Assembly (NCBI GenBank): GCA_022071945.1
Contig: JAJVIN010000023.1
Span: 1-64,000 of the forward strand
Direction: 5' to 3'
Length of the DNA stretch: 64,000 nucleotides
Source of the DNA: Thermoanaerobaculia bacterium
Lineage (GTDB): Bacteria > Acidobacteriota > Thermoanaerobaculia > UBA5066
A program made the position numbers and the translations under genes. The notes below the pieces were generated by a model that saw only the letters and a program-made list of their open reading frames with translations, was not told the origin of the DNA and made no database searches. Below, in pieces: positions 8,460 through 43,999 of the stretch; position 1 is the first letter of the stretch, and the number at the start of each line of letters is the position of its first letter.

Positions 8460-8538
8460 GACCGGACCATTTGACAGGAGTTGGCGCCTTGTTCGAGCGA
8501 TACGCCATTCGAGGCGGCGTCTCGGCTAACATCACTCC

Positions 8539-15600: not shown

Positions 15601-15821
15601 AGCGCCTCGTAGAGCGGGGCGAGCACGTGGTTGCTCTTCCCGATCCCGATCTCCCCGCAGCACCAGTAGCTCGTGAGGAAGAGGCTGAGCGAGGCGCGGA
15701 CCTCCTCCCGCGTGTCGACGTCGACACCGAGGAGGAACTCCCGCTCGAGGATCGGGCGCGGGGGTGCCGTCGCGGGAACGAGATTCCGGCGGAGAGCTGG
15801 TGGCAGGATGAGGGTCGACAC
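12633..15821 (-). CDS. TraG/VirD4-like ATPase fused to a C-terminal replication-relaxation domain
   Basis: 1062 residues, started at a GTG preceded by AAGGAGGT at ideal spacing rather than the longer upstream frame. The N-terminal ATPase has Walker A CGEIGIGKSNH near residue 60 and Walker B FQVIDEPFWID near 343. It is interrupted, as in many conjugative TraG/HerA-like ATPases, by a Ser/Gly-rich insert (about 433-540). A Pro/Thr/Ala-rich linker (about 613-727) leads to a Replic_Relax-type domain: SERDVAILQAAASWHFVALD, a winged helix, IYYLLSRAGANAL, then MRLRPDGVIVV and LEVETGRKE, which resembles a nuclease-like fold. It probably moves or processes element DNA. The fusion is notable because the second module of this window encodes the two parts separately (39551-40984 and 42974-43999). 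Confidence 0.75.
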   Translation of the reverse strand: MSTLILPPALRRNLVPATAPPRPILEREFLLGVDVDTREEVRASLSLFLTSYWCCGEIGIGKSNHVLAPLYEALKAPLPGAVFDGAGTLATNLLHAVACIATRRMAYADILPEALGQAQRFLLRHPIITFGDPSRAISIDLLRRQLLPNGDLETLEHVATRTYQVFNRLFADDADKRVRFRRVAMMVLTILSAAGRPIREYKRLISPPERTKHGPVANPFLEFCLREAQRLGIQPSQQSFFDDQVQAFEELRRLPLAQFLQATDSTDNALNYFYTSPGADYVNEQSLDLPRLLGSGGKLLLTHTLPDLTLATMLFRAYDSILRTWVRGREPLRRRTAYGFQVIDEPFWIDQGVSGDWAVQRNKRWSVLLLHQRERQLDDIQDGLSDLMASYAKLRGRFRPDTVEVATEIAYRLRTFRPDGLQIPYRTRTTSETKGLSESLGESWGETLSESRSTGESEQHGQSDGWSDSAGDAQTSVPDDPANLPSWTDSRGRGRSGSATSSNGSSWQDTSGTAKSTGGSTGSSTAKTNGEAWTEQLHFVPVAEQALDAAQGVLRTPDFQLFLTYGEKTRQIALAKQREYPVSLFGVPVAEHARTYQQKVYRSWTLPRAPFDTAVTVDVTPTVVPAPAPSSAPASPSAAAPVEERPNVSGAPVPTATTPVTIVEDSVPATQSATVSVAPTEMAPTQSVETTSPSFDSDEVAAETSPDSTGSDEAIPPAARSPFGEVLGTDGKRRVLSERDVAILQAAASWHFVALDSLRLDPDRFGGYSGVSDRVKALADGGLLAKMQPPAARGTGSNPIYYLLSRAGANALAATGQDEPALLRVVENTAKTRVAVERHELGQLQHQLAIANLLALASAGAGRLPGGELLLTRFDKEFVLDVAVAPIARHLTAALRKRLYLEDNQAEMRLRPDGVIVVRTVVAGQPVCQPYLLEVETGRKETGFEELAYAHALRSYAARASRVLPDALAHLGVSGVRPFRVLVVAATPALEERLVAGVSAALAAIDPRDRGLYAFSTLPLVNPKVEPTARVERAAALAQKAGTFFGAVWRTADSPERVALLS

Positions 15822-15911
15822 GGGACCTCCTTGCCGGCACGGTGGCCGGCACAGTCGTGGCACGACGTGAAGAGCGGGCTGTGCTGAAGTGGGGTGCGGC
15901 CCGCGTGGGGG

Positions 15912-19758: not shown

Positions 19759-20108
19759 GCCCAGAACATACGAGCAATCCCTCCTCGTGTCGACTCGCGG
19801 GACAGTCCGAGCGAACGCGGCAGGTGCTCACCGACCCGCGTTCGGAAGATGCAGCGGAAATCAGGGGCGTGTTCTTCTCACGTCCCCTCCTGATTTCTGC
19901 AGAATCCTTCGCTTCAGGGGCCGATCTGAAGAGCGGCCAGTAGTCCTGATCTGGAGAGCCCTAAACTGGGAGTCGATTTCCCATCATCTCTCAAAGACCC
20001 AAGGATCTGCGACGTGCATCACCATTTCCGCTGTAACAGTTCGCTGATCGGGATCGGGCTATACTGCTCCGTGAAGTCGCTACTCCGAATCGGAGATAGG
20101 AGGTGCCC
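19759..20108. other. intergenic region with repeat copy and TIR-gene promoter area
   Basis: No gene seen. Contains repeat copy 2, then an AT-richer stretch leading to the TIR-like gene. TATACT (about 20061-20066) is a plausible -10 without a convincing -35, and AGGAGGT lies directly before the ATG. Confidence 0.5.
19831..19955. repeat. dispersed ~125-bp repeat, copy 2
   Basis: Direct copy of the element at 18929-19052, with roughly one mismatch per six to eight bases. Together they flank the methyltransferase gene. The terminal part GCGGCCAGTAGTCCTGATCT occurs again at the 3' end of the kinase gene (copy 3). Confidence 0.7.
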
Positions 20109-21242
20109 ATGGCTCCATCACTTCGTGTGTTCATCGGCAGCACCTCCGAGAGGCAAGCTCACGTAGAGGAACTCGTCGCGTACATCCAAAGAAACGAAAT
20201 CCTTCATGGTCGAATTGAGCCTGTTCCCTGGTATGGTGCCTGGGGCCAAGGAACACTCACCCTCGAAGGGCTCGAGCAGTGCATTAGTTCGACGGACGGA
20301 GCAATTCTGTTTCTTACGCCTGATGACATCACATCTTCCCGCGGTCAGGAACGACAATCTCCACGCGATAACCTCATCTTCGAGGCGGGACTCTTTCTCG
20401 GCGCACACGGACGCAAGCGGACGAGGCTCCTCGTCCCTCGACCGACACGGCGCCGTCAAGATCCCCAGAAGAATCCATCAGACCTCCTCGGGCTGCACCT
20501 CGAATACTTCACATGGCATTCAGGTGGGGATTTCAGTCAGAGCGACCTGCCGAATGTCGTCCGGAAGGTGTGCGAAGAGCTTCTCAGGTTGGGGCCCAGG
20601 GAAAAGCCTGAGGGGGAAACCCTCCCCAAGCTCCGCGGAACCGAAAGCCACGTTGAGAGAATTGAGACTCTTGTCGGCGACATCGATAAGCTGACCGTCG
20701 ACTGGATACTGCCGTTCCTCCCCACGGCGAAGAAGATCGACCTCGTCAACGCCTATCGGGTCAACGAGAGCATCGTTCGACACCCGCTCTTCCAGGCATT
20801 CAAGGACAGGAAGACCAGCCAACTGCGGGCATGCTTCCTCGATCCGTGGGATGCACCGCTGATCGATATCCATCGCAGAAAGCTCGGGAGGACTCGTACG
20901 ACCAGTTACATCCAAGACGCCTTCAAGGCCTCGATAAACAGGCTGCTCAGCGACGACATCTCCATCACTCACGCTCGAAACAGGACGCGGGTCAAGGTGC
21001 TCTCTGGCAAGCCGCTTGCGGACTTCCAGATATCCGTTACGAACCAACGAATTACCTACACGTACTGCCGGGTCGACAATCGGGCGCTCATCGTTCCGCT
21101 CGACATGAAGAAGAAGCAGGATCCTCGTCCGCTGGCCTGGCTCATCACTACGGACGCTTGTCCGGCGGCATTTCAATACTACCTCTCCGATGTTGGGGCG
21201 CTATTCTCGGATGGAAAGAGTGTCTACAAGTCCCGTCCCTGA
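20109..21242 (+). CDS. TIR-like (CAP12/PF10137-type) nucleotide-binding effector
   Basis: 377 residues from the ATG with AGGAGGT just upstream. The first ~150 residues match the predicted nucleotide-binding TIR-like family: LRVFIGSTSERQAHVEELVA, a W-rich IEPVPWYGAWGQGTLTLEGL segment, DGAILFLTPDD and SPRDNLIFEAGLFLGAHGRK. The last holds the conserved NxxFExGxxxG motif, whose Glu is catalytic in NAD-cleaving relatives of CBASS/STING-type effectors. The C-terminal ~220 residues (TVDWILPFLPTAKKIDLVNA onward) match nothing I recognise and may be the sensor. No cyclase gene is next to it, so this is not a plain CBASS locus. Its 3' end overlaps the exonuclease-like gene, suggesting a two-gene system. 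Confidence 0.75.
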   Translation: MAPSLRVFIGSTSERQAHVEELVAYIQRNEILHGRIEPVPWYGAWGQGTLTLEGLEQCISSTDGAILFLTPDDITSSRGQERQSPRDNLIFEAGLFLGAHGRKRTRLLVPRPTRRRQDPQKNPSDLLGLHLEYFTWHSGGDFSQSDLPNVVRKVCEELLRLGPREKPEGETLPKLRGTESHVERIETLVGDIDKLTVDWILPFLPTAKKIDLVNAYRVNESIVRHPLFQAFKDRKTSQLRACFLDPWDAPLIDIHRRKLGRTRTTSYIQDAFKASINRLLSDDISITHARNRTRVKVLSGKPLADFQISVTNQRITYTYCRVDNRALIVPLDMKKKQDPRPLAWLITTDACPAAFQYYLSDVGALFSDGKSVYKSRP

Positions 21243-26463: not shown

Positions 26464-26921
26464 ATGCCTGCCTCCACGAACGAACGAATCAGCAAGTTCC
26501 TGAGCCTCGTCCTGCGCTCTTGCGCGAGGTCGTCGAGCTGAATGACAAGCAGCGGTTTCGGTTCTCGGAGGACGGTCACTCGATCCGTGCCAATCAGGGT
26601 CACTCTGTTCACGTCGATTTGAAGCTCAATCCGAAGGTGCCGCCCGCTGTGCTCTTCCATGGCACGGCGGACAGGTTCCTGCCGTCAATTCGGGAGCGAG
26701 GGCTCATCTCGGGTACCCGGCAATACGTCCACCTTTCGAAGGATCGAGAAACAGCGATGATCGTCGGGAAGCGGCATGGAAGACCAGCAGTTCTCGACGT
26801 GCGATCTGGAGCCATGCACGACGCGGGATTCGTCTTCTTCCTCTCGGACAACGGGGTGTGGCTGACCGACTCTGTCCCGGTGGCGTTTCTCACCTTCCCA
26901 TCCGGCGAAGAACCCGGCTGA
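26464..26921 (+). pseudogene. kptA: kptA (RNA 2'-phosphotransferase) with internal N-terminal deletion
   Basis: An ATG opens ERISKFLSLVLR, the canonical start of KptA/Tpt1, but the frame then runs into a stop at about 26541. The rest of the protein resumes in another frame as LLREVVELNDKQRFRFSEDG, then SIRANQGHS, LFHGTADRFLPSIRERGL and YVHLSKDRETA, all conserved in the family. About 35 residues of the N-terminal winged-helix part are missing at a junction where GCGCTCTTGCGCGAG joins the halves. A TTG at 26520 could start a truncated 133-residue protein that keeps the NAD-binding region. KptA removes a 2'-phosphate from RNA using NAD. Confidence 0.75.
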
Positions 26922-27005
26922 ATTCCAACGCTCGCGCGTCGATCAATTCGTGCTTGCTCTCCCGTTTCTCAAGGGAGCTTTCTTGGTCAAACTGAAGGGA
27001 TCCCT

Positions 27006-27491
27006 CTATGGGTTTCGCCCCTCCAGCCACGACAGGTAGAACTCCGCGACCTTGAGGACGTCGCCCGCATTCCCGACTGCGGCGTGTGACGCTGCCGCAG
27101 CCTTCAGCGCGACGCAGGCGAGCATCGAGGATCGGTCCGATGCGGCCTTCACCGGAATTGGCGAACTCGACGGTATGCCGCCACCGCGAGCGGCGCCGTC
27201 CTCGCGATCCAATGGCGCAGCCGCTGCAATCTCGTACTGCTGGAACGCGCGGCCATCTCGGCTTAGGCGCTGGCTCGTGCGGACGGTGAGCTGGGACCCT
27301 CGTCCGAGACGCAGCTTGTCGAGTTCCGCGAACAGAGATCGCGGCGGCAGGAACGTGTGCTCGCTGCCGTCGGGCGTCCGCACGCGATACGCGCGGTACG
27401 GGCCGAAGCGCGTCGAGCCTTCTCGCGGCCGGTCGAAGAGAAGCGTGAGCGGCGTCGTCGTACCGGGCTGGAGGAAATCATTCGAGGCCAT
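27006..27491 (-). CDS. hypothetical protein of the SSB cluster, possible OB-fold
   Basis: 161 residues from ATG MASNDFLQPG. The N-terminal half (LTLLFDRPREGSTRFGPYRAY to SQLTVRTSQRL) alternates strands in a pattern compatible with an OB-like barrel. The Ala-rich C-terminal part (ACVALKAAAASHAAVGNAGD) is helical. It is the last gene of a minus-strand group of SSB-like genes, suggesting a role in single-strand DNA metabolism of the element, but the assignment is weak. Confidence 0.45.
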   Translation of the reverse strand: MASNDFLQPGTTTPLTLLFDRPREGSTRFGPYRAYRVRTPDGSEHTFLPPRSLFAELDKLRLGRGSQLTVRTSQRLSRDGRAFQQYEIAAAAPLDREDGAARGGGIPSSSPIPVKAASDRSSMLACVALKAAAASHAAVGNAGDVLKVAEFYLSWLEGRNP

Positions 27492-27798
27492 GGGTGTGTG
27501 GGGGAATGGAACGGGGAGAAAGACCGCTGAGAGAGGAGACCGCCGAGGGAAGGAGCCCCGGGCTCGCATGTGACGCCGCGCCTGTGGATGTCTGCCGTCC
27601 TATGGAAAACGGCTGGAACGCTCGCGGCGCACCGAGGCCGGTTCCCGCCGTTTCCCACAGGACTTGGAAATCCCTGCGCCGTGCCTCGTGTGCGCTCTCG
27701 ACACATGACGGGATTCCCACAGAAATCCACAGTCCTACGACCGCGAGAATTTTCTATTTATTCTTTCAGGAGACCCGGGATTCCGGAGAGACCGCCGA
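27492..27798. other. non-coding stretch with DnaA-box-like words and an AT-rich block
   Basis: No gene. Contains TGTGGAT (27583), TTTCCCACA (27651), ATTCCCACA (27713) and AAATCCACA (27723), each within one or two bases of a relaxed DnaA box. An AT-rich run (27745-27768, AATTTTCTATTTATTCTTTC) follows. In an element carrying several SSB-like genes this could be a replication origin, although the boxes are imperfect. Confidence 0.3.
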
Positions 27799-28674
27799 TC
27801 AGATGTGGCAGTCGACGATGGCGAGGCGCGTGCCATCACTCCAGCTGTCCCAGAGGCGGCGGAACTCGCGCGCCCACACGTCCGTTGCCTTCTCGTCGGC
27901 AGCGAAGCCGAACCAGCCCATGGAGCCCTTCTCGTGCCACACCCCGTCGTGGAGGACGGCGAACGGGCAGAGCGCGCGGTCACGCTCCCGTCGGACGTAC
28001 GCCGCCTCGCTGCCCGGGAAGTCCTCGGGCTTCGTCCAGATGCCAAGGGCTGAGCGCCGCGCGTTGAACGCCGCCACGCGCGGCTGCTCGTTGTAGTGGC
28101 TCCGCGCGTCCTCGGTGCTGATCTCCCCCGCGTCGATGCGTTGGGCGAAGTGCCTCCACGGCACGTGCTCTGGCGTCCCGGCGATGGCGGTCGCGTACGC
28201 GGCCCACGTCCGGCGCGCCTCGGCCTCGGATGCCGCTTCCATCGCGGCGATGTCCACGTCGCCCTTCAGGATCTCGTCGACGCCAGTGGGTTCGGGGGCC
28301 GCATCTCCGTGCCGGCGCACGAAGGCATCAGGTGTACCCGTGCCGCCGAGGACGCCGCCCTTGCCCGGCTTCGGCGTGAAGAACCCGCGGAACCGCCCGC
28401 CCACCTCCCACCAGTCCCACTTGGCGTCTGGGTTCGAGGTGGAGAGTCCGTAGACGCCGCGGCGATCGACGCCGCCCTCCCGTCCGTTCCAGTCCTCCAT
28501 GTGCGCGACGATCGCTCGGCGATCGTTCGGGTCGAGCCGGTAGTGCGCCGCGATGTCGGCAAGCTCAGTGGTATTGAGGTAGACCTTGCTGGGCTCGGTC
28601 TCGAGGGCTTCATCGAAGGGCGCGAGCTGCGCTTCAATGTTCGGTCCAGTGACGAGGCAGGCGAAGTGCGACAT
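27799..28674 (-). CDS. phage-type conserved protein of unknown function
   Basis: 291 residues. The opening MSHFACLVTGPNIEAQLAPF, the RAIVAHMEDWNGREGGVD segment and the PDAKWDWWEVGGRFRGFF core are hallmarks of a protein family frequently encoded by actinobacterial and other tailed phages and never functionally assigned. A second aromatic block (CPFAVLHDGVWHEKGSMGWF) near the C-terminus may repeat the fold. It sits 75 bp after the SSB gene in the same direction. Its presence points to phage ancestry for this part of the element. Confidence 0.65.
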   Translation of the reverse strand: MSHFACLVTGPNIEAQLAPFDEALETEPSKVYLNTTELADIAAHYRLDPNDRRAIVAHMEDWNGREGGVDRRGVYGLSTSNPDAKWDWWEVGGRFRGFFTPKPGKGGVLGGTGTPDAFVRRHGDAAPEPTGVDEILKGDVDIAAMEAASEAEARRTWAAYATAIAGTPEHVPWRHFAQRIDAGEISTEDARSHYNEQPRVAAFNARRSALGIWTKPEDFPGSEAAYVRRERDRALCPFAVLHDGVWHEKGSMGWFGFAADEKATDVWAREFRRLWDSWSDGTRLAIVDCHI

Positions 28675-28749
28675 AGAGGTTTCAGGGTGAAGGGATGGGG
28701 AATCGGGATTGGCCCGATCCGGCTGGAGGGAGCCCGCATCGACCCCGCG

Positions 28750-29136
28750 CTAATCGGCGGCGGGCGTCGTACCTGGAGACTCGCGGTTGACCACGCTCAC
28801 GCCGTCCTTCTTCTTCCACGTGAGCATGTTGATCTCGTCGGCGCGGATCTCCGTGGTGTAGCGGCGCTCGCCGTTCTTCTCGTACGCGCGGTTCAGGAGT
28901 TCGCCCTCGACGTAGATGCCGGTGCCGCGCACGAGGTGCTTGGCGCAGACCTCGCCGAGCGTTCCCCACGCGACGACGCGGTGGTAGTCGGTGACTTCCT
29001 TCCGGACACCGTCACTCGTGTGCTCGCGGTGCGTTGCCACGGGGAACGTGACGCGGACCTGTCCGCTCTTGGTGTCGATGGCCTCCGGGTCGGCGGCGAG
29101 GTGACCGACGAGGATGATCTTGTTGACGCTGCGCAT
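28750..29136 (-). CDS. ssb: single-stranded DNA-binding protein
   Basis: 128 residues with a full OB-fold SSB domain: VNKIILVGHLAADPEAIDTK, FPVATHREHTSDGVRKEVTD, YHRVVAWGTLGEVCAKHLVR, then GTGIYVEGELLNRAYEKNGE. The acidic C-terminal tail of chromosomal SSBs (DDDIPF) is absent; the chain ends ESPGTTPAAD. It is therefore likely an element-encoded SSB used during element replication or transfer, and may not recruit host partners through the usual tip. A two-hairpin motif ends 43 bases before its start. Confidence 0.9.
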   Translation of the reverse strand: MRSVNKIILVGHLAADPEAIDTKSGQVRVTFPVATHREHTSDGVRKEVTDYHRVVAWGTLGEVCAKHLVRGTGIYVEGELLNRAYEKNGERRYTTEIRADEINMLTWKKKDGVSVVNRESPGTTPAAD

Positions 29137-29178
29137 AGGGGTGAATGGGGGAAGGGGATTGGGAACGGGATGTCGGGC

Positions 29179-29242
29179 TCCTCGGGCGAAGACCTAAGGA
29201 TTCCACCCTCCGTCACGGCCGGCTGTTTCGGACCGGTGACGG
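29179..29242 (-). promoter_or_regulatory. two-hairpin leader motif, copy A
   Basis: Read on the minus strand: a stem CCGTCAC/GTGACGG enclosing CGAAACAGCCGG, then a weaker hairpin CCTTAGGTCTTCGCCCGAGG, 43 bases before the ssb start. The first stem overlaps the 3' end of the upstream OB-fold gene. Its arms differ from copies B and C, yet pairing is kept. Confidence 0.55.
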
Positions 29243-29590
29243 GCGCGCGTGGGAGCCGGAGCCACCGAGCCGGAATGCGAGCGCCACCGCCCGGGCGTGG
29301 AACTCGGTGACGAGTCGGCGTTTGCCGCGCGGATCCTCCACCCGGTGGTGGATCGTTCCCTCGACGACGACGATCCGGCCGGGGTGGAGGAGGCGAAGGC
29401 AGGTCGCGGCGTGGTCACCGCGGACGACTACGAGGTTCTCGCGGGAGGGTTTCCGCGATTGCGGCTCCACCGCGAGGCGGCTCCACGGACGGAGGCGGAA
29501 CTCGACGTGCGGCGATCCGCGCCGCTGGACGACGACGGGGGCTGTCGCGATCCGGCCAACGAGCGTGAAGATCGGGTGAGCAGTACGCAT
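29213..29590 (-). CDS. SSB-like OB-fold protein
   Basis: 125 residues. FTLVGRIATAPVVVQRRGSP, HVEFRLRPWSRLAVEPQSRK, LVVVRGDHAATCLRLLHPGR and IVVVEGTIHHRVEDPRGKRR follow the strand order of an SSB OB-fold, with RIVVVEGTI matching the (Y)VEG motif. Similarity to the neighbouring SSB is low and the aromatic DNA-stacking positions are mostly replaced, so it may be a diverged paralogue with altered binding. It is encoded between the DNA methylase and ssb genes in the same direction, preceded by motif copy B. Confidence 0.65.
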   Translation of the reverse strand: MRTAHPIFTLVGRIATAPVVVQRRGSPHVEFRLRPWSRLAVEPQSRKPSRENLVVVRGDHAATCLRLLHPGRIVVVEGTIHHRVEDPRGKRRLVTEFHARAVALAFRLGGSGSHARPSPVRNSRP

Positions 29591-29619
29591 GGGAGTTGGT
29601 GGGGAAGGAATTGGGAACG

Positions 29620-29684
29620 CTCGGGCGAAAGCCCGAGGACATGAACCTCCCGTCCACGGCCGACTGTTTCGGGCATGGACGGGA
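29620..29684 (-). promoter_or_regulatory. two-hairpin leader motif, copy B
   Basis: On the minus strand: 9-bp stem TCCCGTCCA/TGGACGGGA enclosing CGAAACAGTCGG, then a perfect hairpin CTCGGGC-TTTC-GCCCGAG. It lies between the methylase stop and the start of the SSB-like gene. This is the clearest copy, with both stems fully paired. Confidence 0.65.
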
Positions 29685-29692
29685 GGGGACAG

Positions 29693-30361
29693 TTACGCGG
29701 CGACGGGAATCGGCGCACGCGGTCCGAGCAGCCGCGTGACGGCGGTCTCGTAGTGCAGGGGGCTCAGCTCGACGCCGATCACCTGGCGCTTGAGCGAGCG
29801 CGCCGCGACGAGCGTGGAGCCCGATCCCATGAACGGGTCGAGCACGATCTCGCCCGGGCGCGAGTACGCCTCGATCACCGGCGCGAGCGCCGAGACCGGC
29901 TTCTGCGTCGGGTGGAGGGTGTTGCCCGTGTACTCCCACGGGAGAGTGTCCGGGATGATCTGGTTTGGCGTGGACGCCTGACCGCGCGCGAGCAGGTAGG
30001 CGACCTCGTGCTTGCACTCGGCGAGACGGCGCGACGACGCGTAGCGCTTCAACCAGACGAAGTGCCCGACCGGGAACAGTCCCGCGGCGCGCCACGCCGC
30101 GAGGAAGCGGTCGGCCTGGCTCCAGCCATAGAACGACACGCAGAAGCGCCCGGGTTTCAGCACGCGGCCGACCTCGGCGAACGCCGGGAAGAGCCAGCGG
30201 TCGTTGTCGTCGTTCAGCACGCCCTGCCCGTCGCGCGAGCGGTAGCGGATCAGGTACGGAGGGTCCGTCACGACGAGGTCGACCGACGCGTCCGGCAATC
30301 GCCGGAGCACGCGCGTGCAGTCGCCGCGGTACACGCGGTTAGCGAAGGGAGACGGCGTCAT
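29693..30361 (-). CDS. DNA methyltransferase, beta-group (DPPY)
   Basis: 222 residues. Motif IV VVTDPPYLIRY (residues 31-41) precedes motif I IVLDPFMGSGSTLVAA (172-187), the order of beta-class N6-adenine/N4-cytosine methylases. TLHPTQKPVSALAPVIE is also typical. No restriction gene is adjacent, so it is an orphan methylase, as in many phages and conjugative elements, probably protecting element DNA from host restriction. Its ATG overlaps the upstream OB-fold gene by 4 bp (ATGA). Confidence 0.85.
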   Translation of the reverse strand: MTPSPFANRVYRGDCTRVLRRLPDASVDLVVTDPPYLIRYRSRDGQGVLNDDNDRWLFPAFAEVGRVLKPGRFCVSFYGWSQADRFLAAWRAAGLFPVGHFVWLKRYASSRRLAECKHEVAYLLARGQASTPNQIIPDTLPWEYTGNTLHPTQKPVSALAPVIEAYSRPGEIVLDPFMGSGSTLVAARSLKRQVIGVELSPLHYETAVTRLLGPRAPIPVAA

Positions 30362-30726
30362 ACGACGGGAGCCGTCACGGGCGCGTCGATGAGCGAGGCG
30401 AGCCGGTCGAGTTCCTCCACGGAGGGCGCGATGGCGCGCATGTCGGATCCGTCCGGCACCATTCGGGCGACGCGCATCGCCTGGACGTAGACCTCGCCGG
30501 TCGCCGGATCGAGCGCGAGCCGTCCCTCGGCGCGTAGGATGTTGCCGCGTCGCAGGCAGGCGATCCCAGCCGCCTCGAGACCGAGGCCGGTCACGGTGAT
30601 CTCGGTGCGAGGGAACTCGCAGATTCGGACGGGAACCGAGGCGAACACGGGTCCCTCCCGGCTGAGGCGAATAATCGGCGCTCCGATCGCGCCCTGGACA
30701 ACGACCTCGTTGCGTTCGTGCTGCAT
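30358..30726 (-). CDS. OB-fold SSB-like protein, first gene of the SSB cluster
   Basis: 122 residues from ATG MQHERNEVVVQG. The pattern NEVVVQGAIGAPIIRLSREG, VFASVPVRICEFPRTEITVT, GNILRAEGRLALDPATGEVY and VQAMRVARMVPDG fits an SSB-type OB barrel, followed by a short helical tail. It heads the minus-strand cluster and overlaps the methylase gene by 4 bp. The chosen start is preceded by motif copy C; the longer frame has no support. Confidence 0.6.
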   Translation of the reverse strand: MQHERNEVVVQGAIGAPIIRLSREGPVFASVPVRICEFPRTEITVTGLGLEAAGIACLRRGNILRAEGRLALDPATGEVYVQAMRVARMVPDGSDMRAIAPSVEELDRLASLIDAPVTAPVV

Positions 30727-31151
30727 GGTGGTGTGAGGGGTAGGAAACTCCGGACCCTCGGGCGAAGCCCGAGGAAATCCACCCCTCCACGGCGGTCTGT
30801 TTGACGCGGTGTCTGGACGCCGGGGTACCCGCTGAAGATGATGTCGTGCAGCAGCCTCCACACTCCAAGAAGACCTCGTAAGGCGGGGAGTGAACGGGCC
30901 TCCTGTTCAACCCTGATCTCGGCAGGTCGTTCAGGTCCCTATCTAACTGTGAATGCTGGGGTTTTCTCTGTTCCAGGAGGGACTGAAATGGGGGTCCTGA
31001 TCCCGGTCTTGAGTCCTGAAGTCAGGAATCAGCCCTGTCAGCTCTCTCAGGTCCTTCCGAGTTCAGGCCCCTGTCCGAGAAGCTCACGCGCAAGTGATAC
31101 GTGGTCGGCCCTCTCGAAATCGCTGCGCGCGCTGCGACATCACGTGCCCCC
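30727..31151. other. intergenic region upstream of the SSB cluster
   Basis: No gene. It holds motif copy C and then a lower-GC stretch (30900-31090) with several related words (GTCCTGATC, GAGTCCTGA, GTCAGGAATCAG, TCAGGTCC) in both orientations, which could be a binding-site cluster for an unidentified regulator. The promoter of the SSB cluster should lie here. Confidence 0.4.
30756..30811 (-). promoter_or_regulatory. two-hairpin leader motif, copy C
   Basis: On the minus strand: stem CACCGCG/CGCCGTG (one mismatch) enclosing TCAAACAGAC, then a perfect 8-bp hairpin CCTCGGGC-TTC-GCCCGAGG, 29 bases before the start of the first OB-fold gene. Same order and spacing as copies A and B, although no gene of the cluster lies upstream. 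Confidence 0.6.
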
Positions 31152-31697
31152 TCACTCTCGCCCCGCGTCCCTCCGAGCGCCGTGGATCATTTCAGACGCA
31201 GATTCTCCTGGTGAAATTTGCTCCCGGAGTTTTCGTGCCTCTTCGACGAGCGGCGGGACATCGTGCAGCTCACCCCATTCGGCAAAGGTCCTGCGCTCCC
31301 CGGTGAGTCGCTCCATCACAGCCTCGTAGTGCGCCGCCTTCACCGGGTCACTCGCGACCCGCTCTCGGAGCGAGGGCAGCCCCGTCGGCGGCTGCTTCCG
31401 CTGCTCCTCGGCGAACTTCCGGCTGAACTCGAGCCCGTCCGCCAGGTACGCCGTCACGAAGTCTCGGTGCCGGTGGTAGAAGAGGATCGTGGCGTAGACC
31501 TCTTCGAGCGTGAGCGTCTCCCAGTACCTGGCGATTTCCTCGGGGGTCCAGGCGCGGTAGATGTAGTCGTAGAGCACGGTCTCGATTCCGATGCGGTGCC
31601 CCTTAATGCGGATGTCGTCGGGACGCTGGACGTCGAAGTAGTCTCCCAGGTCTCCGAATATCGGAACTACCAAGTCTGGGTTTGGATCGAAGTTCAC
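31152..31697 (-). CDS. DUF433-domain protein
   Basis: 181 residues. FDVQRPDDIRIKGHRIGIET, WTPEEIARYWETLTLEEVYA and TILFYHRHRDFVTAYL follow the DUF433 winged-helix pattern (IxGxRI, PEEIA, LTxEQVYAAL), a domain of antitoxin-like DNA-binding proteins. The extra ~90-residue C-terminal part is charged and helical (WGELHDVPPLVEEARKLREQ). Stand-alone DUF433 proteins are usually about 75 residues and pair with a PIN toxin; here no partner is directly adjacent, although a PIN gene lies about 1.1 kb away. A regulatory role is likely. Confidence 0.65.
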   Translation of the reverse strand: MNFDPNPDLVVPIFGDLGDYFDVQRPDDIRIKGHRIGIETVLYDYIYRAWTPEEIARYWETLTLEEVYATILFYHRHRDFVTAYLADGLEFSRKFAEEQRKQPPTGLPSLRERVASDPVKAAHYEAVMERLTGERRTFAEWGELHDVPPLVEEARKLREQISPGESASEMIHGARRDAGRE

Positions 31698-31760
31698 GGG
31701 TCACCCCTCGTACCATTTTACGCTGCGGCGGGTGCTAGCATCTGCTGGCAGGAGCAGAGC

Positions 31761-31949
31761 ATGGACGCACCAGACTGGACGGAAGAGACGTGCCCCGAGT
31801 GTGACGGTGGCCTCTGTAACGACTGGGAGGCGCACGGGAAGCTCCGCGTGATCGTCGCAAGTCACCTCCTGATCGTGCATCGAAGGCTCCTCGAACTGCA
31901 GCGAGAGACGCACAGGCTCACCCTGTTTCCTGATGGGCCGATACAGTAA
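31761..31949 (+). CDS. small CxxC protein, hypothetical
   Basis: 62 residues, ATG preceded by AGGAG at suitable distance. MDAPDWTEETCPECDGGLCN gives a CPEC plus Cys pattern that could coordinate zinc, followed by a helix (LRVIVASHLLIVHRRLLELQ). It is the only rightward gene among leftward neighbours. Composition is protein-like, but no family is recognised. Confidence 0.45.
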   Translation: MDAPDWTEETCPECDGGLCNDWEAHGKLRVIVASHLLIVHRRLLELQRETHRLTLFPDGPIQ

Positions 31950-32099
31950 GTGCTGAGCCACCCTGGGAGAGTCACAACATTCCACATCCAACCAGGCCTC
32001 ACCTCCCTCATTTCCTGGGAATCCGCAGTGGTCTCTGACCAGGAACGGTGGGGGCGGTTCCGAAGGGATCGTGACGGACAAGGCTATTGATAGCCGCGC

Positions 32100-32786: not shown

Positions 32787-33320
32787 TCATAGCTGTTTGC
32801 CGCGAGGTCGGCGAGTGACGGCCTGGACGGTCTTGGTGAAGCGGTCGAGGATGTCGACTGTGATGTGCCGGGGGTTATCACGGCGGATTGCTGCGGCTGT
32901 GCTGAGAGCGGCTTCGGCGCTGAGTTCCTGCCGTGTGACCAGCTCGACCATCAGCTGCAGACCCCAGAGGATGGAGACCCCGCCACTCTCGCACTCGCGC
33001 CGCAGAGCCTTATCATTCGTCACGCAGGTAAACCCGCCGCGTTGCGCCATGAGCAGGCAGAGGTGATCCTCGAACGAGAGAGAGCCCCGCTGGCTCGCTG
33101 CAGTCATCAGGTCTGCAGCCTCCGGCTCGAGGAGCGTGAGCCCGAGGCGACGGCAGTCTGCTTCGGTCAGCTGCTCGACTTCCGCGAGGATCGGGACTGG
33201 AACGTGCAGCGGTCCGATGTGGTGGACGACGAGTGTGAGGACGGATCGATCTGCGAGGGCGTAGTCGATGAGGACGTTGGCGTCGATGATGAGCAGCTGC
33301 GCTGGCAGAGGAGGGTGCAT
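32787..33320 (-). CDS. PIN-domain ribonuclease (toxin-like)
   Basis: About 177 residues from MHPPLPAQLLIIDANVLIDY. The PIN acidic cluster is present: IDANVLIDY (Asp), PVPILAEVEQL (Glu), GSLSFEDHLCLLMAQ (Asp) and CVTNDKALRREC (Asp). It starts 4 bp after the XRE-ImmA/IrrE gene. XRE-Zn-peptidase genes paired with PIN genes are a predicted toxin-antitoxin arrangement in comparative surveys, with the XRE-peptidase as antitoxin and repressor. The C-terminal ~60 residues beyond the PIN core are helical and unassigned. Confidence 0.8.
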   Translation of the reverse strand: MHPPLPAQLLIIDANVLIDYALADRSVLTLVVHHIGPLHVPVPILAEVEQLTEADCRRLGLTLLEPEAADLMTAASQRGSLSFEDHLCLLMAQRGGFTCVTNDKALRRECESGGVSILWGLQLMVELVTRQELSAEAALSTAAAIRRDNPRHITVDILDRFTKTVQAVTRRPRGKQL

Positions 33321-33324
33321 CAGG

Positions 33325-34482
33325 CTACTCGACCCATGAGGAGGCGAGGGCGCGCATCTCTCGGAGGTGCAGCCCGAGGATCTCCCCGCCACGTCCGAGC
33401 GAGATCAGGTCGCGCTCCACCGCGTGCCGGACCAGCAGCTGGAGACGATCCTCCGTGAAGTCGGTCGGCGAGAGGCTATCTGGTTCCTCCGCAGCCCGCG
33501 TTGACGCCGCACGGAAAGCCTCGACCCCGAGAGCCTCTGGTTCATCGGCCTTCTGGAGGCTCCGTCCGAAGCGGCGGGTGTACTCGGCCTGGAAGCGTCC
33601 CCAGACCTGCTTCCCGAGTGCAGAAGTTTCAGAGAGGCGGTAGAGAACCGTCTTGTAACTCACGCGGAACATGCGCTTCAGCTTCAGGACACGATCTACG
33701 AAGCTCGAACCCGCGCTGGCCGCCCACTCCTTGCGGAAGGCACCCTCAGGAAGGAGGAAGTGGGCGGCGAACGTATCCGCCTCTTTCTCCTCGTTCGGGC
33801 GCTCGTCGCTGTCACTCGCGTTGTAGGCATCCAGGTGCAGGAGCAGGTGGCCGAGTTCGTGGGCGGCCGTGAAGATCCACCGCTCGACGGCAATTCGTTC
33901 CCACGTATTCACGACGACCGCCGGGCCGCCGTCCTCGCGTCCGACCGAGAGGCCGAAGAACGCGTCGCTCGCGACGGAGATCCGGTAGACCTTCACGCCG
34001 GCCGACTCCAGGAGGCCGCAGATGTCGCGGATCGGCTCGACCTCGCCGAGGCCGAGCAGCGCCCGCACTTCCCGCGCCAACTCGGCAGGCCCAAGCGGTT
34101 CGGCGGATGCGCGGAGGCGACGGATCTTCTCGTCCAGATCGAAGGTCTTCAGGTCGCCGAGGAGCTGCTCGAGCTGGGAGAAGTTAGTGAGCCAGTCGCC
34201 GACGTCCGCCAAGACCTGCTCCCTGGAGTTCAGCCGCTTGAGCGAGCGGAAGCGAACCTGCGAGAGCAGCGTCACCGGCCGGAGCAGCGCCGCGAGGTTG
34301 ACCTCAAGCGCCTGTGCCAGCGCCTGCAACGTGCTGGCGCGCGGCACAGCCTTCCCCGTCTCGATGTTGCGGTAGCCAACGCGGGTCAGATCCGCCTTCT
34401 CTGCCAGCTGCGCCTGGGTCCAGCCCCGGGATTCACGGAGGCGTCGGAGATTCGCTGGGAGCGTGGTGCTGAGGGGTTCCAT
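33325..34482 (-). CDS. XRE-family regulator fused to ImmA/IrrE metallopeptidase
   Basis: 385 residues. N-terminal HTH: NLRRLRESRGWTQAQLAEKA, then LTRVGYRNIETGKAVPRAST. The centre has the ImmA/IrrE zinc site WIFTAAHELGHLLLHLDAY (HExxH near residue 205) and the downstream acidic NEEKEADTFAAHFLLPEGAF. The C-terminus has a winged-helix-like segment (FRVSYKTVLYRLSETSALG). Such proteins repress their own operon and can be relieved by proteolysis. It is the first gene of a stack with PIN, DUF2188 and ASCH-like genes. Its promoter overlaps a pair of direct repeats (see separate entry). Confidence 0.9.
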   Translation of the reverse strand: MEPLSTTLPANLRRLRESRGWTQAQLAEKADLTRVGYRNIETGKAVPRASTLQALAQALEVNLAALLRPVTLLSQVRFRSLKRLNSREQVLADVGDWLTNFSQLEQLLGDLKTFDLDEKIRRLRASAEPLGPAELAREVRALLGLGEVEPIRDICGLLESAGVKVYRISVASDAFFGLSVGREDGGPAVVVNTWERIAVERWIFTAAHELGHLLLHLDAYNASDSDERPNEEKEADTFAAHFLLPEGAFRKEWAASAGSSFVDRVLKLKRMFRVSYKTVLYRLSETSALGKQVWGRFQAEYTRRFGRSLQKADEPEALGVEAFRAASTRAAEEPDSLSPTDFTEDRLQLLVRHAVERDLISLGRGGEILGLHLREMRALASSWVE

Positions 34483-34877: not shown

Positions 34878-35017
34878 TCTCGCAGCCAGAAGCCATGAAC
34901 GGGTACTCGCCGTTCGTGGTCCACCCCTCCCGATGACCACCTGCCTGTATCGTGCAGGGGTCGTCCGGTTGTCTCCTCGCCGATGGCGTGGGAAAGCGGT
35001 TTAACCCCCCTTTCCCC

Positions 35018-36058
35018 ATGGTTTCCTCCCAGCCGAAAACACCTCCTGCTTTTCCTGCAACTCGACGGAACCACACGCACCCAAGTCGACGGGCTGATGC
35101 TCGAACACCGCGTCAGGACGCCGCAGAATCCCTCACGGATCTCTCGCTTGACCGGCTCGACCTCTGGCACGCGGCATTCTGCGAAGAATCGCGGCACCTG
35201 GAGGGGAAGAGCCCGATGACGGTCGCGGGATACGACTGTGCGTACCGGTCCTTCCGCCGGTTCCTCCTCGAGGCGGTACCCCGGACGAACGGTGCCATTG
35301 GGACGCGGCTCTCAGAGGTGGAGGCCTGGCTCATGTGGCTCCGAAAGCGGGGCGTCGGTCCGGTCTCGTGCAACACCTACTGGCGGGGACTCGTGCCGTT
35401 CTTCCAGTACCTCGAGCGCACCCGGAGCGTCCCGAACCCGTTCGATGGGCTGCGCGCTCCAGGACTCCCGCAGCGTGTACCGAAGGCGCTCAGTCCCGAC
35501 GAGTGCCGACGCCTCATCGAGTCTGCGCAGCACTTCCCGTGGCCGACGCTGTTCGAACGTACCCGCGCGGTGGCCGTCGTGGCGATCCTCCTCTACACCG
35601 GGCTCCGTCGCGGAGAGCTGCTCCGCTTGAAGTACGCGGATGTCGACCTTAACGACGGGAGCCTCCGCGTCGAGAAGGGGAAAGGGCGGTACGGCGGGAA
35701 GGACCGCGTCTGTGTTCTCCCGCCGGAACTCATCTTCTTCTTGAAGGCCTACCTGCGAGAACGCGCGCGCTGCCAGATCGTGTGCCCGGAGGTCTTCGCC
35801 TCCCATCGCCAGCAGGGACTCTCCGAGACGCAGCTGCGGCGCATCCTCGGCGCGGTGAAGCGGGCGGCGGGCATCCAGTTCAGCCCGCACGCGCTCCGCC
35901 ACAGCTTCATCTCGATGGCACTTCGCGCTGGGACGCCGATCCACGTCGTCCAGGCGCTGGCGGGACATGCCTCGATCCAGTCGACGATCCCGTACATCCG
36001 CGTGTTCGACGAGGAGCGTCGGGCTGCCGCGCAGAAGTTCACGATCATGGGACTGTGA
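35018..36058 (+). CDS. tyrosine recombinase (second integrase)
   Basis: About 346 residues from MVSSQPKTPP; an upstream GTG would add 22. Catalytic motifs: Arg in YTGLRRGELLRLKY, HxxR in PHALRHSFISMAL, His in ALAGHASIQST and Tyr in PYIRVFDEE. The SAM-like N-terminal part has LEGKSPMTVAGYDCAYRSFR. The compact architecture is XerC/D- or Tn554-like rather than lambda-like. It starts about 140 bp right of the tRNA-Ala fragment. Its last ~80 bases are duplicated at 38158-38239, suggesting that recombination or an insertion has involved this gene end. Confidence 0.9.
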   Translation: MVSSQPKTPPAFPATRRNHTHPSRRADARTPRQDAAESLTDLSLDRLDLWHAAFCEESRHLEGKSPMTVAGYDCAYRSFRRFLLEAVPRTNGAIGTRLSEVEAWLMWLRKRGVGPVSCNTYWRGLVPFFQYLERTRSVPNPFDGLRAPGLPQRVPKALSPDECRRLIESAQHFPWPTLFERTRAVAVVAILLYTGLRRGELLRLKYADVDLNDGSLRVEKGKGRYGGKDRVCVLPPELIFFLKAYLRERARCQIVCPEVFASHRQQGLSETQLRRILGAVKRAAGIQFSPHALRHSFISMALRAGTPIHVVQALAGHASIQSTIPYIRVFDEERRAAAQKFTIMGL

Positions 36059-38262: not shown

Positions 38263-39567
38263 TCAGCCGTCGAGGTGGTGCACGTCGAGCTTGGACATCG
38301 CCCGCCGGAGGTCGTCGTCGGAGACGGACGAGTAGTAGAGCGTCATCGAGAGGTGCTTGTGGCCGAGCTGGCGCTGGATGACGGGCAGCGGCACGCCGGC
38401 CTCACGCCAGAGATCCGCTGCCGTCCGTCGCAGCATGTGGGGGGTGACGTGCGTGCCGAGGCTCTGGCTGACTATGCGCAGAATGCGGCGCACCGACACT
38501 TCGCCGATGCCCCCATTGCGCGTCGTCGAGACAATGAACTCATCGTCGGTTCGTCCCGCATCTCGCTTCGCGCCGATGTACCGCGTGAAGACCTCGACCG
38601 CTGTCGGACAGCAGACGAGGCGACGCTTCCCGCCGCTCGGTCCCTTGCCGATGACGTGGAGGTCGCCGTTGTCGCGATTTACGTCCCCATTCTTCAGCGT
38701 GAGTGCCTCATCTCGGCGGAGTCCTCCGAGGACGTAGAGGCGCACCAGGCAGCTGTTCCGCGCTGCCTCCAGTTCGGAGCCCCAGGGGAAGTGATCTACC
38801 TTCTCGAGGAGCGCCGGGACGAGCCCGACCAGGAGACGTGGCCGCTCTGGGTCTCCCTGCTTCGGTGTTGCAATCCCCTGGAATGGACTGAAGGCACCGT
38901 CCTGGGCGGCGAGGTGAACGACGACCGTCCGGACAGCGCGGAAGTACCCGTGGATACTGCGACGGCTCATGAGTCCGGATCGCGTCGGTCGCTGCCGGAG
39001 CCACGCCAGCCACTCTTTGATCACGCGCGCCTGCTCCCGCCAGTCTCCTCCGATCCAGGCTCGCTCGAGGTTGTTCGCCCGGACGAACCGAGCGAACGAG
39101 CGGAGCCCATCACGCCGCCAGTTCGCGGTGGTGCGAGCTTTCCCCTCTACGCGGACTTCCTCGTCGACACGGGCCAGGAACCGTCGTTCAAACTCGAGGA
39201 GGGAGTCCATCGCGAACGGGCGACCCGGCACACTGCTCTGGGAGGGGCTTCCGCCCGCAACACCTGTTGCGAAACCCGCGTAGAGCTGACCCACGAGGAG
39301 CTGGATGCGTGGATGAGCCAGCAGTGCCTCCGTACTCAAGTGGTCCAGAGGCAGTTCGCCAGCTGGAAGGAGCGCTTGGCTCGGTGTGCCGCCAGTCCGC
39401 TCATCGCCTCCCCTGTCGGTGGGGAGTGAACCACTCCCTGCGATGGACGAATCCGCCACCGGTACAGAGACCGGGGCGCTCGGCGAATCACGAGGAGATA
39501 GGGGGCGTCTCATGGAACCGGCAAGGAGGGAATCGCTCATCGGGTCGGGGCTACGAACTGTAGTCAT
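38263..39567 (-). CDS. tyrosine recombinase (third integrase)
   Basis: About 434 residues; the start is uncertain because ATGs at 39567 and 39540 both lack a good ribosome site. Catalytic motifs: Arg in VLGGLRRDEALTLK, HxxR in TPHMLRRTAADLW, His in QLGHKHLSMTL and Tyr in LYYSSVSDDDLR. The N-terminal ~120 residues are low-complexity Ser/Pro. It overlaps the 3' end of the TraG-like ATPase gene and runs in the same direction, as if part of that operon; the integrase fragment lies 24 bp beyond its stop. It probably serves the right-hand module. Confidence 0.85.
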   Translation of the reverse strand: MTTVRSPDPMSDSLLAGSMRRPLSPRDSPSAPVSVPVADSSIAGSGSLPTDRGGDERTGGTPSQALLPAGELPLDHLSTEALLAHPRIQLLVGQLYAGFATGVAGGSPSQSSVPGRPFAMDSLLEFERRFLARVDEEVRVEGKARTTANWRRDGLRSFARFVRANNLERAWIGGDWREQARVIKEWLAWLRQRPTRSGLMSRRSIHGYFRAVRTVVVHLAAQDGAFSPFQGIATPKQGDPERPRLLVGLVPALLEKVDHFPWGSELEAARNSCLVRLYVLGGLRRDEALTLKNGDVNRDNGDLHVIGKGPSGGKRRLVCCPTAVEVFTRYIGAKRDAGRTDDEFIVSTTRNGGIGEVSVRRILRIVSQSLGTHVTPHMLRRTAADLWREAGVPLPVIQRQLGHKHLSMTLYYSSVSDDDLRRAMSKLDVHHLDG

Positions 39568-40984
39568 CAATCACCAAGCCCGTCGGAACCGGCTCCATCC
39601 GGGTCTTCGGCATCTTCTGCGGGCGATCGAGCCGGATGCGTCGAGCGCGAAACGTTCGTCCCCGGATCGCCCAATAGCACGCACCGCGCGGGAGGTCGGT
39701 GATCTCGCGAATGCGTGACGCGATCTCCTCAGCCGGTGTCAGGAGCGGGTCCGTGATCTCGTCGTAGTGCCGGACGCGCTGCCGGGGCATCGTGCCGAGC
39801 GGCTCCAGGATGTCGGGTCCGAGGAGCCGGGCTTCCTGGAGTGGGAGCCGAAACAGGAACTGCCGCGCCGTGTTCCCCGTGAGGAGCGGTCGGAGCTTGG
39901 CCGGGAACAGCGAGAGCCCCTGCGAGGCCAGCGCGAGCGAGACCTTGTACTTCCGTCCGGTCACGAGCAAATCTGGGAGACCACCATCTTCGGCGGCGAA
40001 GCTGTGGGCTTCGTCGAGCAGGATGGAGAACGGCCGCCGCGTCTCCGGCACCTGCTGCTCCCGACGGAGCGCGCCAAGCAGTAGGCTGTTCAGGAGGAGC
40101 CGCCCCAGCACATCGGACGCCGCGCCGAGGGCGCCGCGGGCGAGGTTCACGATCACAGCCACCGGCTGATCCATCACCGAGAGGACATCCAAGTCTGCGA
40201 CGCCTTTCCCGAGGAACTTCTGGACGGACTCCGATCCTGTGAGCGGCGAGAGCTTGTTGATGACCGCCGACGCGTACATCTGCTCGGCGGCACCGAACCG
40301 CTCCGTGAAGTACGTCTGCGCCTGGGCTCCCGCCGTCTGGAGGACCGAGAGCCGGAAGTCCCGATCGAGGAGGAAGCGCTCGAGGTCGAGCAGCGTGACC
40401 GGCACCTCGCTCTCGATCGCCGCACGCAGACTCGCCGTCAGGATCTCTGACACCTTCACGCCGAACGCCCAGGAGGTCGCGCGCTCGTTCGTGTAGAGCT
40501 TCTTCAACACGGAGAGGAGGAGATCGACCTGGCGACCCGGTTCAACGCCGTCCATCTTTGCGAGCGGATTCCACGACGGGAGCGTCTCCGGCCGGGTGAA
40601 GTCGAGGTCGATGACCTTGAGGTTCCGCGTCGCGAGCGCCCAGGTGGCCACGCGCCTGGCGAGGTCTCCGTGTGGGTCGATGAGGCAGAACGCCTGCGCG
40701 TTTGCGAGCCGCGCCCGGGCGATGGCCTCGAGGAGCGACGACTTCCCGCTCCCTGTAGTTCCCAGGATGAGGGCGTGTTGGCGGAGATCCTCTGGCGTCA
40801 GGACGCACGGGACATCCGACCCGTCCGGCGACCGGTAGACCCCGAAGGGAGTGCCCTTCTCCTGGCGCTTCAGCATCTCGTGGAGGAAGCGATCCTTGGC
40901 GCAATAGAACTCGCGAGCGCGGAACCAGTCGCGGCTCTGCCGGGTCTGAAACGAGAGTTCGAGGACGGAGTCGAACGACATCAT
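39551..40984 (-). CDS. TraG/VirD4-like DNA-transfer ATPase
   Basis: 477 residues. Walker A ALILGTTGSGKSSLLEAIAR near residue 75 and LIDPHGDLARRVATWAL follow the HerA/TraG pattern. Walker B is PFSILLDEAHSFAAEDGG near 320, followed by TGRKYKVSLALASQGLSLFP and NTARQFLFRLP. No membrane helices are visible, so it is a soluble coupling-type motor. It overlaps the wHTH/membrane gene by 4 bp. Its role is the counterpart of the N-terminal half of the fused protein at 12633-15821. Confidence 0.85.
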   Translation of the reverse strand: MMSFDSVLELSFQTRQSRDWFRAREFYCAKDRFLHEMLKRQEKGTPFGVYRSPDGSDVPCVLTPEDLRQHALILGTTGSGKSSLLEAIARARLANAQAFCLIDPHGDLARRVATWALATRNLKVIDLDFTRPETLPSWNPLAKMDGVEPGRQVDLLLSVLKKLYTNERATSWAFGVKVSEILTASLRAAIESEVPVTLLDLERFLLDRDFRLSVLQTAGAQAQTYFTERFGAAEQMYASAVINKLSPLTGSESVQKFLGKGVADLDVLSVMDQPVAVIVNLARGALGAASDVLGRLLLNSLLLGALRREQQVPETRRPFSILLDEAHSFAAEDGGLPDLLVTGRKYKVSLALASQGLSLFPAKLRPLLTGNTARQFLFRLPLQEARLLGPDILEPLGTMPRQRVRHYDEITDPLLTPAEEIASRIREITDLPRGACYWAIRGRTFRARRIRLDRPQKMPKTRMEPVPTGLVIDDYSS

Positions 40985-42973: not shown

Positions 42974-43999
42974 ATGCCTCAAGACCTGCAGCTCTCGACA
43001 CTAGAAGGGGAAGCGTCGACAGACGCAATTGATCGCCTGTCGGCGGAACCAAGAAACGCGCAGCCAGAAGCGATTCCTCCGCCCGAAACTCGCACACCTA
43101 GCCGCGCGACCCCGAGACCGATCCGTGTGCGAGGCCGGAGAGACAACGAACCAGCACTGGGGGTCGCACACGGAGTCGCACAGACCCCCGCACACGGACC
43201 TGCCCTTCCACGGGATCGAGCCATCTTGATCCGGCTTGCCAAGATGCGGCTCCTCTCCCTCCCCCAGCTCCAGAGGCTCGTCTTCGCTGGCCGCCACAGG
43301 ACCCGCCTCAGCTACCGGCTCTCAGCCCTGGCGCGTCAGGGGTGGATTCGTCTCTGGGAAGAGCCCTTGATCCGGGGCGGACGGCCCCGCTACGTCGTCC
43401 CGACGCTTGCCGGTCTCAGGTTCGGGCTCGCGCAGCTCGAGCGGTCCCAGCAGCCCTTCCGGCACGCCCAGCTTCTCGCGACGATGCTCCGGAACGACCG
43501 GCGTCTTCCGATCCCGCTCACCGACGGCGTGACGCCGGCCTTCCTGAACCACCAACGGGAAGTGAACGACATCCTCATCTCCCTTGGATCCTCCCAGGGA
43601 AGCACAGTCACGTGGGCGTCGAGCTGGCACCGGCCATTTCCGAATAGTTTCCACGGGCTTCGTCTCCCACAGCCGGACTTCGTGGTGGTCGTCGCCGAAG
43701 GGGACGAACGCAGCCTCATCCTTGGCGAACATGATCGCGGCCACGAATCCCTCGCCCACTTCGCCGAAGCGAAGATTACACGGTACCGCGACCTCGCGCG
43801 GCAAGCGGCGGTCCTGAAAGAACTGACAGGCTTCGACGCCTTCACGGTGCTCGTGACCGTGAACGATGCGCTGGCGAAGAACTCAGAGGCTCGCATCGAG
43901 AAGCTGCGAAGAGCAGCGCTCGAGGGGTTCGCAGCGAATCTCTTCAGCTTCGCGTCGTCATTGCCATCAACCCTTGGTTTCCTTGCAAATCTCAAATAG
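42974..43999 (+). CDS. replication-relaxation family protein
   Basis: 341 residues. After a ~75-residue Pro/Arg-rich lead comes the family core: LPRDRAILIRLAKMRLLSLP, then LQRLVFAGRHRTRLSYRLSA, LARQGWIRLWEEPLIRGG and RPRYVVPTLAGLRFG, a winged helix with a C-terminal strand pair. FLNHQREVNDILISLG, LPQPDFVVVVAEGDERSLIL and GEHDRGHESLAHFAEAKITR follow, similar to a nuclease-like fold. Replic_Relax proteins are linked to plasmid and conjugative-element DNA handling. It is transcribed divergently from the TraG-like ATPase operon, whereas both domains are fused at 12633-15821. Confidence 0.75.
   Translation: MPQDLQLSTLEGEASTDAIDRLSAEPRNAQPEAIPPPETRTPSRATPRPIRVRGRRDNEPALGVAHGVAQTPAHGPALPRDRAILIRLAKMRLLSLPQLQRLVFAGRHRTRLSYRLSALARQGWIRLWEEPLIRGGRPRYVVPTLAGLRFGLAQLERSQQPFRHAQLLATMLRNDRRLPIPLTDGVTPAFLNHQREVNDILISLGSSQGSTVTWASSWHRPFPNSFHGLRLPQPDFVVVVAEGDERSLILGEHDRGHESLAHFAEAKITRYRDLARQAAVLKELTGFDAFTVLVTVNDALAKNSEARIEKLRRAALEGFAANLFSFASSLPSTLGFLANLK

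Follow-up and report, generated by a model that had tools for sequence, protein, structure and literature searches.

A two-hairpin leader element is repeated three times on the minus strand of a 64,000-nucleotide stretch of Thermoanaerobaculia bacterium DNA (assembly GCA_022071945.1, contig JAJVIN010000023.1, positions 1 to 64,000; hereafter the window). Copy A lies at 30756-30811, copy B at 29620-29686 and copy C at 29179-29242. They precede, respectively, a gene for a 122-aa protein and two genes, SSB1 and SSB2, of the single-stranded DNA-binding (SSB) protein family. The repeat is genuine, specific to one locus and tied to gene starts, and its retention as a gene-linked leader of SSB-type genes is supported by the comparisons below. 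A function as a leader is plausible but unproven. By analogy with phage T4 gene 32, the copies may, as a tentative preference, be a translational operator through which SSB-type proteins regulate their own synthesis.

The repeat, its folding and its distribution

The core AAACAG-N-C-N-GCCGTG is identical in the three copies. AAACAG stands at the loop of hairpin 1 and GCCGTG forms its common side, while the GC-rich hairpin 2 ends in TTCGCCCGAG. The core pattern AAACAGNNNGCCGTG has three exact matches in the window and 12 matches with up to two mismatches, against 4.9 expected. The distance from hairpin 2 to the ATG is 29 nt in A, 29 nt in B and 43 nt in C. Local-alignment scores between the leaders were 57 (A/B), 48 (A/C) and 44 (B/C), with shuffle maxima of 33, 31 and 29, so that 0 of 1000 shuffles reached the observed likeness in any pair. 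The three minus-strand copies with an AAACAG loop and a second GC-rich hairpin, as given in a preliminary description of this DNA, are thereby confirmed. The parts of the copies and the related leader of gene D, all on the minus strand, are as follows.

30788-30811, minus strand: hairpin 1 of copy A, irregular, CAC/GUG plus inner pairs, the AAACAG occupying 30797-30802
30756-30774, minus strand: hairpin 2 of copy A, CCTCGGGC-TTC-GCCCGAGG
30727-30755, minus strand: leader of copy A up to the ATG, pyrimidine-rich, no Shine-Dalgarno (SD) sequence close to the ATG
29646-29686, minus strand: hairpin 1 of copy B, 17 pairs, starting directly 3' of the methyltransferase (MTase) stop codon
29620-29637, minus strand: hairpin 2 of copy B, CTCGGGC-TTTC-GCCCGAG
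29591-29619, minus strand: leader of copy B up to the ATG, G-poor, start predicted 94% unpaired, no SD
29210-29242, minus strand: hairpin 1 of copy C, 12 pairs, containing the SSB1 stop codon
29179-29200, minus strand: hairpin 2 of copy C, weaker, with U-G pairs and one A-C mismatch
29137-29178, minus strand: leader of copy C up to the ATG, exceeding the other two in length, 3' part G-poor, no SD
28675-28720, minus strand: leader of gene D, similarly G-poor, with a single hairpin (28700-28720) and without the AAACAG hairpin

The coding DNA behind the leaders behaves differently. SSB1 and SSB2 show no likeness above chance (154 of 300 shuffles as good); the gene for the 122-aa protein has a slight likeness to SSB1 (4 of 300) and no clear one to SSB2 (56 of 300). 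Since the leaders are alike and the SSB coding DNA is not, the leader was kept, or copied, while the genes diverged.

Hairpin 1 has 17 predicted pairs in B, 12 in C and 10 in A, where it is irregular, with mismatches and bulges. Compared with 200 shuffles, its folding energy is exceptional in B (z -6.95), moderate in C (-2.29) and no better than shuffled sequence in A (-1.00). Hairpin 2 is stable in A (z -4.23) and B (-3.70) and weak in C (-1.37). Among 513 upstream regions of 110 nt, a background that includes starts from this cluster itself, copy B ranked 1st by folding and copy A 36th. The gene calls behind this ranking, and behind the counts of SD words, the second filter for G-poor starts, hairpin density and MTase neighbourhoods given below, came from a simple GC-position script and not from a gene finder.

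The preliminary description reported compensating changes in the stems and took them, together with the conserved loop, for the signature of a structured RNA. This could not be upheld. A hand count on the predicted folds gave no clean two-sided substitution in any shared pair; the changes are mostly one-sided or disruptive, namely C-to-U changes in one arm and pairs that are lost, beside a single coordinated extra C-G pair (B versus C). The apparent compensation arises mainly from hairpin arms that differ in length and register, and hairpin 1 is strong only in B. With three copies at one locus and no other found, covariation stands unproven.

A covariance model, R1, was built from an alignment of the three copies in which the hairpin arms are imperfectly in register, so that it is mainly a sequence model. 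In its own genome R1 scored the copies at 71.5-84.4 bits and the next match (C8) at 26.7 bits. Run with stricter filters at E 5e-4 on 396 genomes of the phylum, it matched its own genome only and none of the 395 others; in 14 genomes of the family, matches in other genomes reached at most 29.2 bits. Those of these lower matches that were inspected, by eye, read as coding DNA. DNA pattern scans gave 60 viral stretches with GAAACAGNCGGCCGTG and, for a two-part pattern, 2 viral and 101 genome stretches, of which the 2 viral and 80 genome ones (82) were scored. The stretches from the scans were taken as chance, their R1 scores being at most 24.3 and 24.8 bits. Similarity searches with single copies against phage, viral and plasmid collections (A without plasmids, C without phages) returned nothing below E 0.9.

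No relative of SSB1 outside its own genome appeared in the viral, phage, phylum or plasmid searches, and none of the 122-aa protein in the plasmid and viral searches. For SSB2 there was none in viral contigs, and the plasmid search returned ssb genes in general. The comparison with Rfam proposed in the preliminary description was made, and no family, STAXI included, matched the window at its gathering score. Within 28650-30900 two sub-threshold matches (E 0.2-0.3) fall on the other strand, far below the gathering scores of their families.

Start regions, genes and their setting

Five starts of the cluster (those of the 122-aa gene, SSB1, SSB2 and genes D and E) have a G-poor, pyrimidine-rich stretch abutting the ATG and no SD nearby; the MTase start overlaps the preceding gene. 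The host genome does use SD sequences: SD-like words accompany 110 of 275 first starts, compared with 40 of 275 for a control interval, and have a positional peak at -8 to -15. A first G-poor filter, applied in 484 kb to open frames of 90 codons or longer, passed 9 starts, of which 5 belong to this cluster. A second, applied to 1.284 Mb, passed 15 of 868 called genes, 4 of them from this cluster, and the gene behind copy A failed; most passers outside the cluster are ATGs that lie within longer frames. For the start region, the predicted unpaired fraction is 0.94 in copy B and 0.83 in copy C. Starts without SD have in general been associated with a local absence of structure (PMC3121790).

The same type of G-poor, SD-less pyrimidine leader was seen outside the window, on the minus strand before a 138-codon frame with its start at about position 9341 of locus L024 (C13:73341). 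In copy B, a short upstream reading frame that follows GGGAGG was dismissed by eye, its start being absent from A and C.

Six co-directional genes occupy 27006-30726.

30358-30726, minus strand: gene for the 122-aa protein, 3' of copy A, its likeness to SSB limited to a weak collinear alignment
29693-30361, minus strand: N6/N4 DNA methyltransferase with 52% identity to the single MTase annotated on pBCJ2315
29213-29590, minus strand: SSB1, a divergent member of the SSB family, whose stop codon falls within hairpin 1 of copy C
28750-29136, minus strand: SSB2, a clear SSB family protein
27799-28674, minus strand: gene D, a phage-type protein of unknown function (phrog_10079)
27006-27491, minus strand: gene E, a predicted oligonucleotide-binding (OB) fold and two C-terminal helices, with the G-poor leader abutting its ATG

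Pfam SSB matches were obtained for two of the three genes behind the copies (E 8.7e-26 and 8.9e-08), and SSB1 and SSB2 are paralogous proteins of 26% identity. The structure prediction for the 122-aa protein was unusable, with a predicted local distance difference test (pLDDT) score of 37. The OB fold of gene E comes from a single-sequence model (pLDDT 69.8), compared at a best Foldseek E of 0.02 and a best Z of 6.9. Upstream of the longer frame of gene E, the 110 nt at 27570-27679 (minus strand) fold at -58.2 kcal/mol (z -4.3, 6th of 513), and a long inverted repeat was noted by eye at about 27600-27665. Gene D has 48 phage-relative records; the neighbours of one phage-type relative, on a 106-kb IMG/VR contig (L137), include several genes that are each preceded by a recurring promoter-like leader.

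Over 202 residues, the cluster MTase shares 52% identity with the one MTase annotated on the B. cenocepacia J2315 plasmid pBCJ2315. A plasmid-borne, single-strand-specific MTase, M.BceJIII, has been reported in this strain (PMC7736820), and the annotated pBCJ2315 enzyme is probably the same protein. Relatives of 46-53% identity occur in 8 of 395 other phylum genomes at E 1e-30. Eleven of their neighbourhoods were fetched and genes were listed for four (L286, L287, L288 and L291); in three of the four, L286 being the exception, a row of genes resembling a type IV secretion system (T4SS) follows 3' of the MTase. Pfam identified TrbC, TrbE/VirB, CagX, TrbI and an integrase in L287, and TrbE/VirB in L288. 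In L287, L288 and L291, which are integrated elements of the same phylum, the MTase relatives stand directly 5' of trb/VirB-type genes. The 11 neighbourhoods and the plasmid loci L262-L264 contained no SSB1, SSB2 or 122-aa relative (tblastn, 0.01) and no R1 match.

Other genes noted in the window are these.

34952-36058 and 38263-39567: integrase genes
39551-40984: HerA/T4SS-type ATPase
12633-15863 (weak) and 42974-43999: Replic_Relax proteins

The cluster reads as establishment-type cargo derived from a plasmid or an integrative and conjugative element (ICE). No PF03135 (VirB4) match was found in the genome, and self-transfer of the element is therefore not established. Likely defence genes were also observed in the window: an integrase followed by an ABC-3C-type pair with CTD6 and AAA_23 domains at 7305-12058, and a CAP12/Pycsar-type TIR protein at 20103-21242. 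At 32787-34482 (minus strand), a gene with a helix-turn-helix and an M78 metallopeptidase domain (ImmA/IrrE type) adjoins one for a 201-aa protein, which resembles a PIN-like toxin by eye and has no Pfam match.

Readings of the element

On the operator reading, the three copies would be leader modules of an SSB-type operon within a cluster of plasmid or ICE origin. On the transcript, hairpin 1 with its AAACAG loop and hairpin 2 would form a folded 5' block, and the unstructured G-poor stretch 3' of it would hold the SD-less start codon. SSB-type proteins could bind the folded block and then spread along the single-stranded leader; once single-stranded DNA (ssDNA) is saturated, they would repress translation of their own genes, as T4 gp32 does. 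Because translation of the MTase ends directly 5' of hairpin 1 of copy B and that of SSB1 ends within hairpin 1 of copy C, ribosomes finishing the upstream gene would presumably disturb the hairpins of B and C and so couple the genes. SSB autoregulation is favoured since a folded block followed by a single-stranded ssb start is the arrangement of the gene 32 operator. It is also consistent with the near-fixed distance to the ATG, the membership of SSB1 and SSB2 in the SSB family and the first rank of copy B among the 513 regions, with A at 36th. Further points in its favour are the likeness of the leaders beside the diverged coding DNA of SSB1 and SSB2, the grouping of five G-poor, SD-less starts in an SD-using genome, and the mostly unpaired start regions predicted for B and C. 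A broader proposal is improbable on present indications: that the copies are SSB-responsive leaders of a new class, a tag common to several establishment-module genes with SD-less, G-poor starts, by which translation of ssDNA-coating proteins would track entering ssDNA.

Several results weigh against the operator. Copy C ranks 122nd of the 513 upstream regions, no better folded than many, and the start region of copy A is predicted only 0.43 unpaired. The antisense strands of the hairpins fold about equally well, and folding energy therefore cannot separate RNA from ssDNA, nor one strand from the other. Pairings within the leaders were no stronger than composition predicts: for the G-rich spacer with the leader, 44 (A), 389 (B) and 333 (C) of 500 shuffled leaders were as good, and for an AAACAG-leader pseudoknot 233 (A), 170 (B) and 85 (C) of 500 shuffles, so that both candidates were rejected. 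The G-poor filters were set after these leaders had been inspected and serve as a description, not as a blind test. The preliminary description assigned an SSB/OB-fold gene to each copy, which holds for the two genes with Pfam matches; the 122-aa protein has no Pfam match, and its alignment to SSB is collinear but non-significant. Finally, no homologous copy was found elsewhere in the genome, in the 395 phylum genomes or in the viral, plasmid and phage collections. A lack of further copies, which the preliminary description had itself named as refuting its reading, thus holds so far for everything searched.

The equal folding of both strands also suits an action of the hairpins in ssDNA during transfer or replication, where they would serve priming, protein loading or transcription from the entering strand, as Frpo/ssi elements do. 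This is a rather unlikely reading, although the gene company is in its favour: SSB and MTase genes are among the groups enriched in plasmid leading regions (PMC11541004), the MTase resembles that of pBCJ2315, from the strain of the single-strand-specific M.BceJIII (PMC7736820), and Pfam T4SS genes adjoin the MTase relatives in both tested neighbourhoods (L287 and L288). However, 26900-32000 contains no sigma-70-type -35/-10 promoter, a stem spanning a promoter would be expected to exceed the 7-17 pairs present here, and the genome lacks the VirB4-type gene. The near-fixed ATG distance, moreover, is less to be expected of a priming site than of a gene leader. The position of B and C between co-directional genes, one abutting the MTase stop and the other overlapping that of SSB1, could instead point to intercistronic hairpins that process or stabilise the mRNA, splitting the operon transcript and setting the dosage of each gene. 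This is somewhat less likely still, as copy A lies in a 425-nt gap behind a different gene, away from tightly linked cistrons, and the conserved AAACAG and GCCGTG would require another reason.

The confinement of the three copies to 1.7 kb, with no others found, and the paralogy of SSB1 and SSB2 would also follow from a tandem duplication of leader and SSB gene, or from gene conversion of the leader, that left likeness without a present function. Set against such a relic are the leaders' retained likeness, where the SSB coding DNA has lost its own, and the invariant core common to all three copies; its probability is put as low as that of transcript processing, or a shade lower. A role of hairpin 2 as transcription terminator, with hairpin 1 as an operator or an incidental fold, is quite improbable. 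Hairpin 2 does have a GC-rich stem of 7-8 bp and a short loop, and in C13 and the examined stretch of C1 the intergenic density of perfect 7-bp hairpins is roughly double that within genes. No T-run follows it, however, and a terminator scan of 26900-32000 found one site (2.5 expected), at 27727-27746, and none at the copies; a stop there would cut off the gene starting 29-43 nt downstream. R1 likewise does not match generic terminators, an outcome considered in the preliminary description. Among the rivals, only termination is disfavoured by a direct test.

Comparison with known systems

In the open-access literature, no comparable SSB-linked leader was recognised beyond gene 32 and STAXI. 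Integron attC sites have the paired ends RYYYAAC and GTTRRRY; no such ends were seen by eye in copies A-C, and integron cassettes were set aside.

Frpo/ssi elements are stem-loops found before ssb and other leading genes in more than one copy (PMC9849209, PMC11541004), and Frpo promoters carry -35/-10 boxes (PMC9849209). The present copies have shorter stems and lack these boxes, and the genome is without the PF03135 T4SS ATPase. An Frpo/ssi promoter was rejected on 0 sites in 26900-32000, in a scan limited to the sigma-70-type consensus. The SAS/ESAS of cluster K mycobacteriophages is a repeated element directly before several starts, about half of them with an upstream inverted repeat (PMC3203893). 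SAS, GGGATAGGAGCCC, has an SD-like purine core, whereas the leaders of A, B and C are pyrimidine-rich and G-poor, and the likeness is only a formal parallel.

The nearest described motif by gene company is STAXI (RF01728), in which structures with UUCG loops occur in two or three repeats close to genes for SSB, integrase and antirestriction proteins, an RNA or ssDNA role being left undecided in the source (PMC2864571). STAXI is a tandem pseudoknot repeat, unlike the copies, which have one hairpin unit per gene. Identity with it was rejected: its model matched neither the window at the gathering score nor 28650-30900 at E up to 2, and its best score in the genome was 13.6 bits, on another contig, against a gathering score of 40.5.

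The T4 and RB69 gene 32 operators are alike in standing before an SSB gene and in having a folded 5' element that gives way to less structured sequence around the start (PMC535899). In the predicted folds this anatomy, a folded element 5' of a weakly structured ssb start, may be recognised in copy B, partly in C and weakly in A, although a simple loop-leader pseudoknot was no better than composition predicts. The T4 operator has a pseudoknot of about 28 nt, UUAAA repeats and an ordinary ribosome-binding site, whereas the copies have two hairpins and an SD-less pyrimidine-rich leader, serve three genes in one cluster and have repression only as a proposal. If the operator reading is true, SSB autoregulation through an mRNA leader, known from phage T4, would extend to plasmid-type cargo, several SSB-like proteins would stand under one shared element, and a defined handle would be gained on the selection and control of SD-less pyrimidine-rich starts in an SD-using genome.

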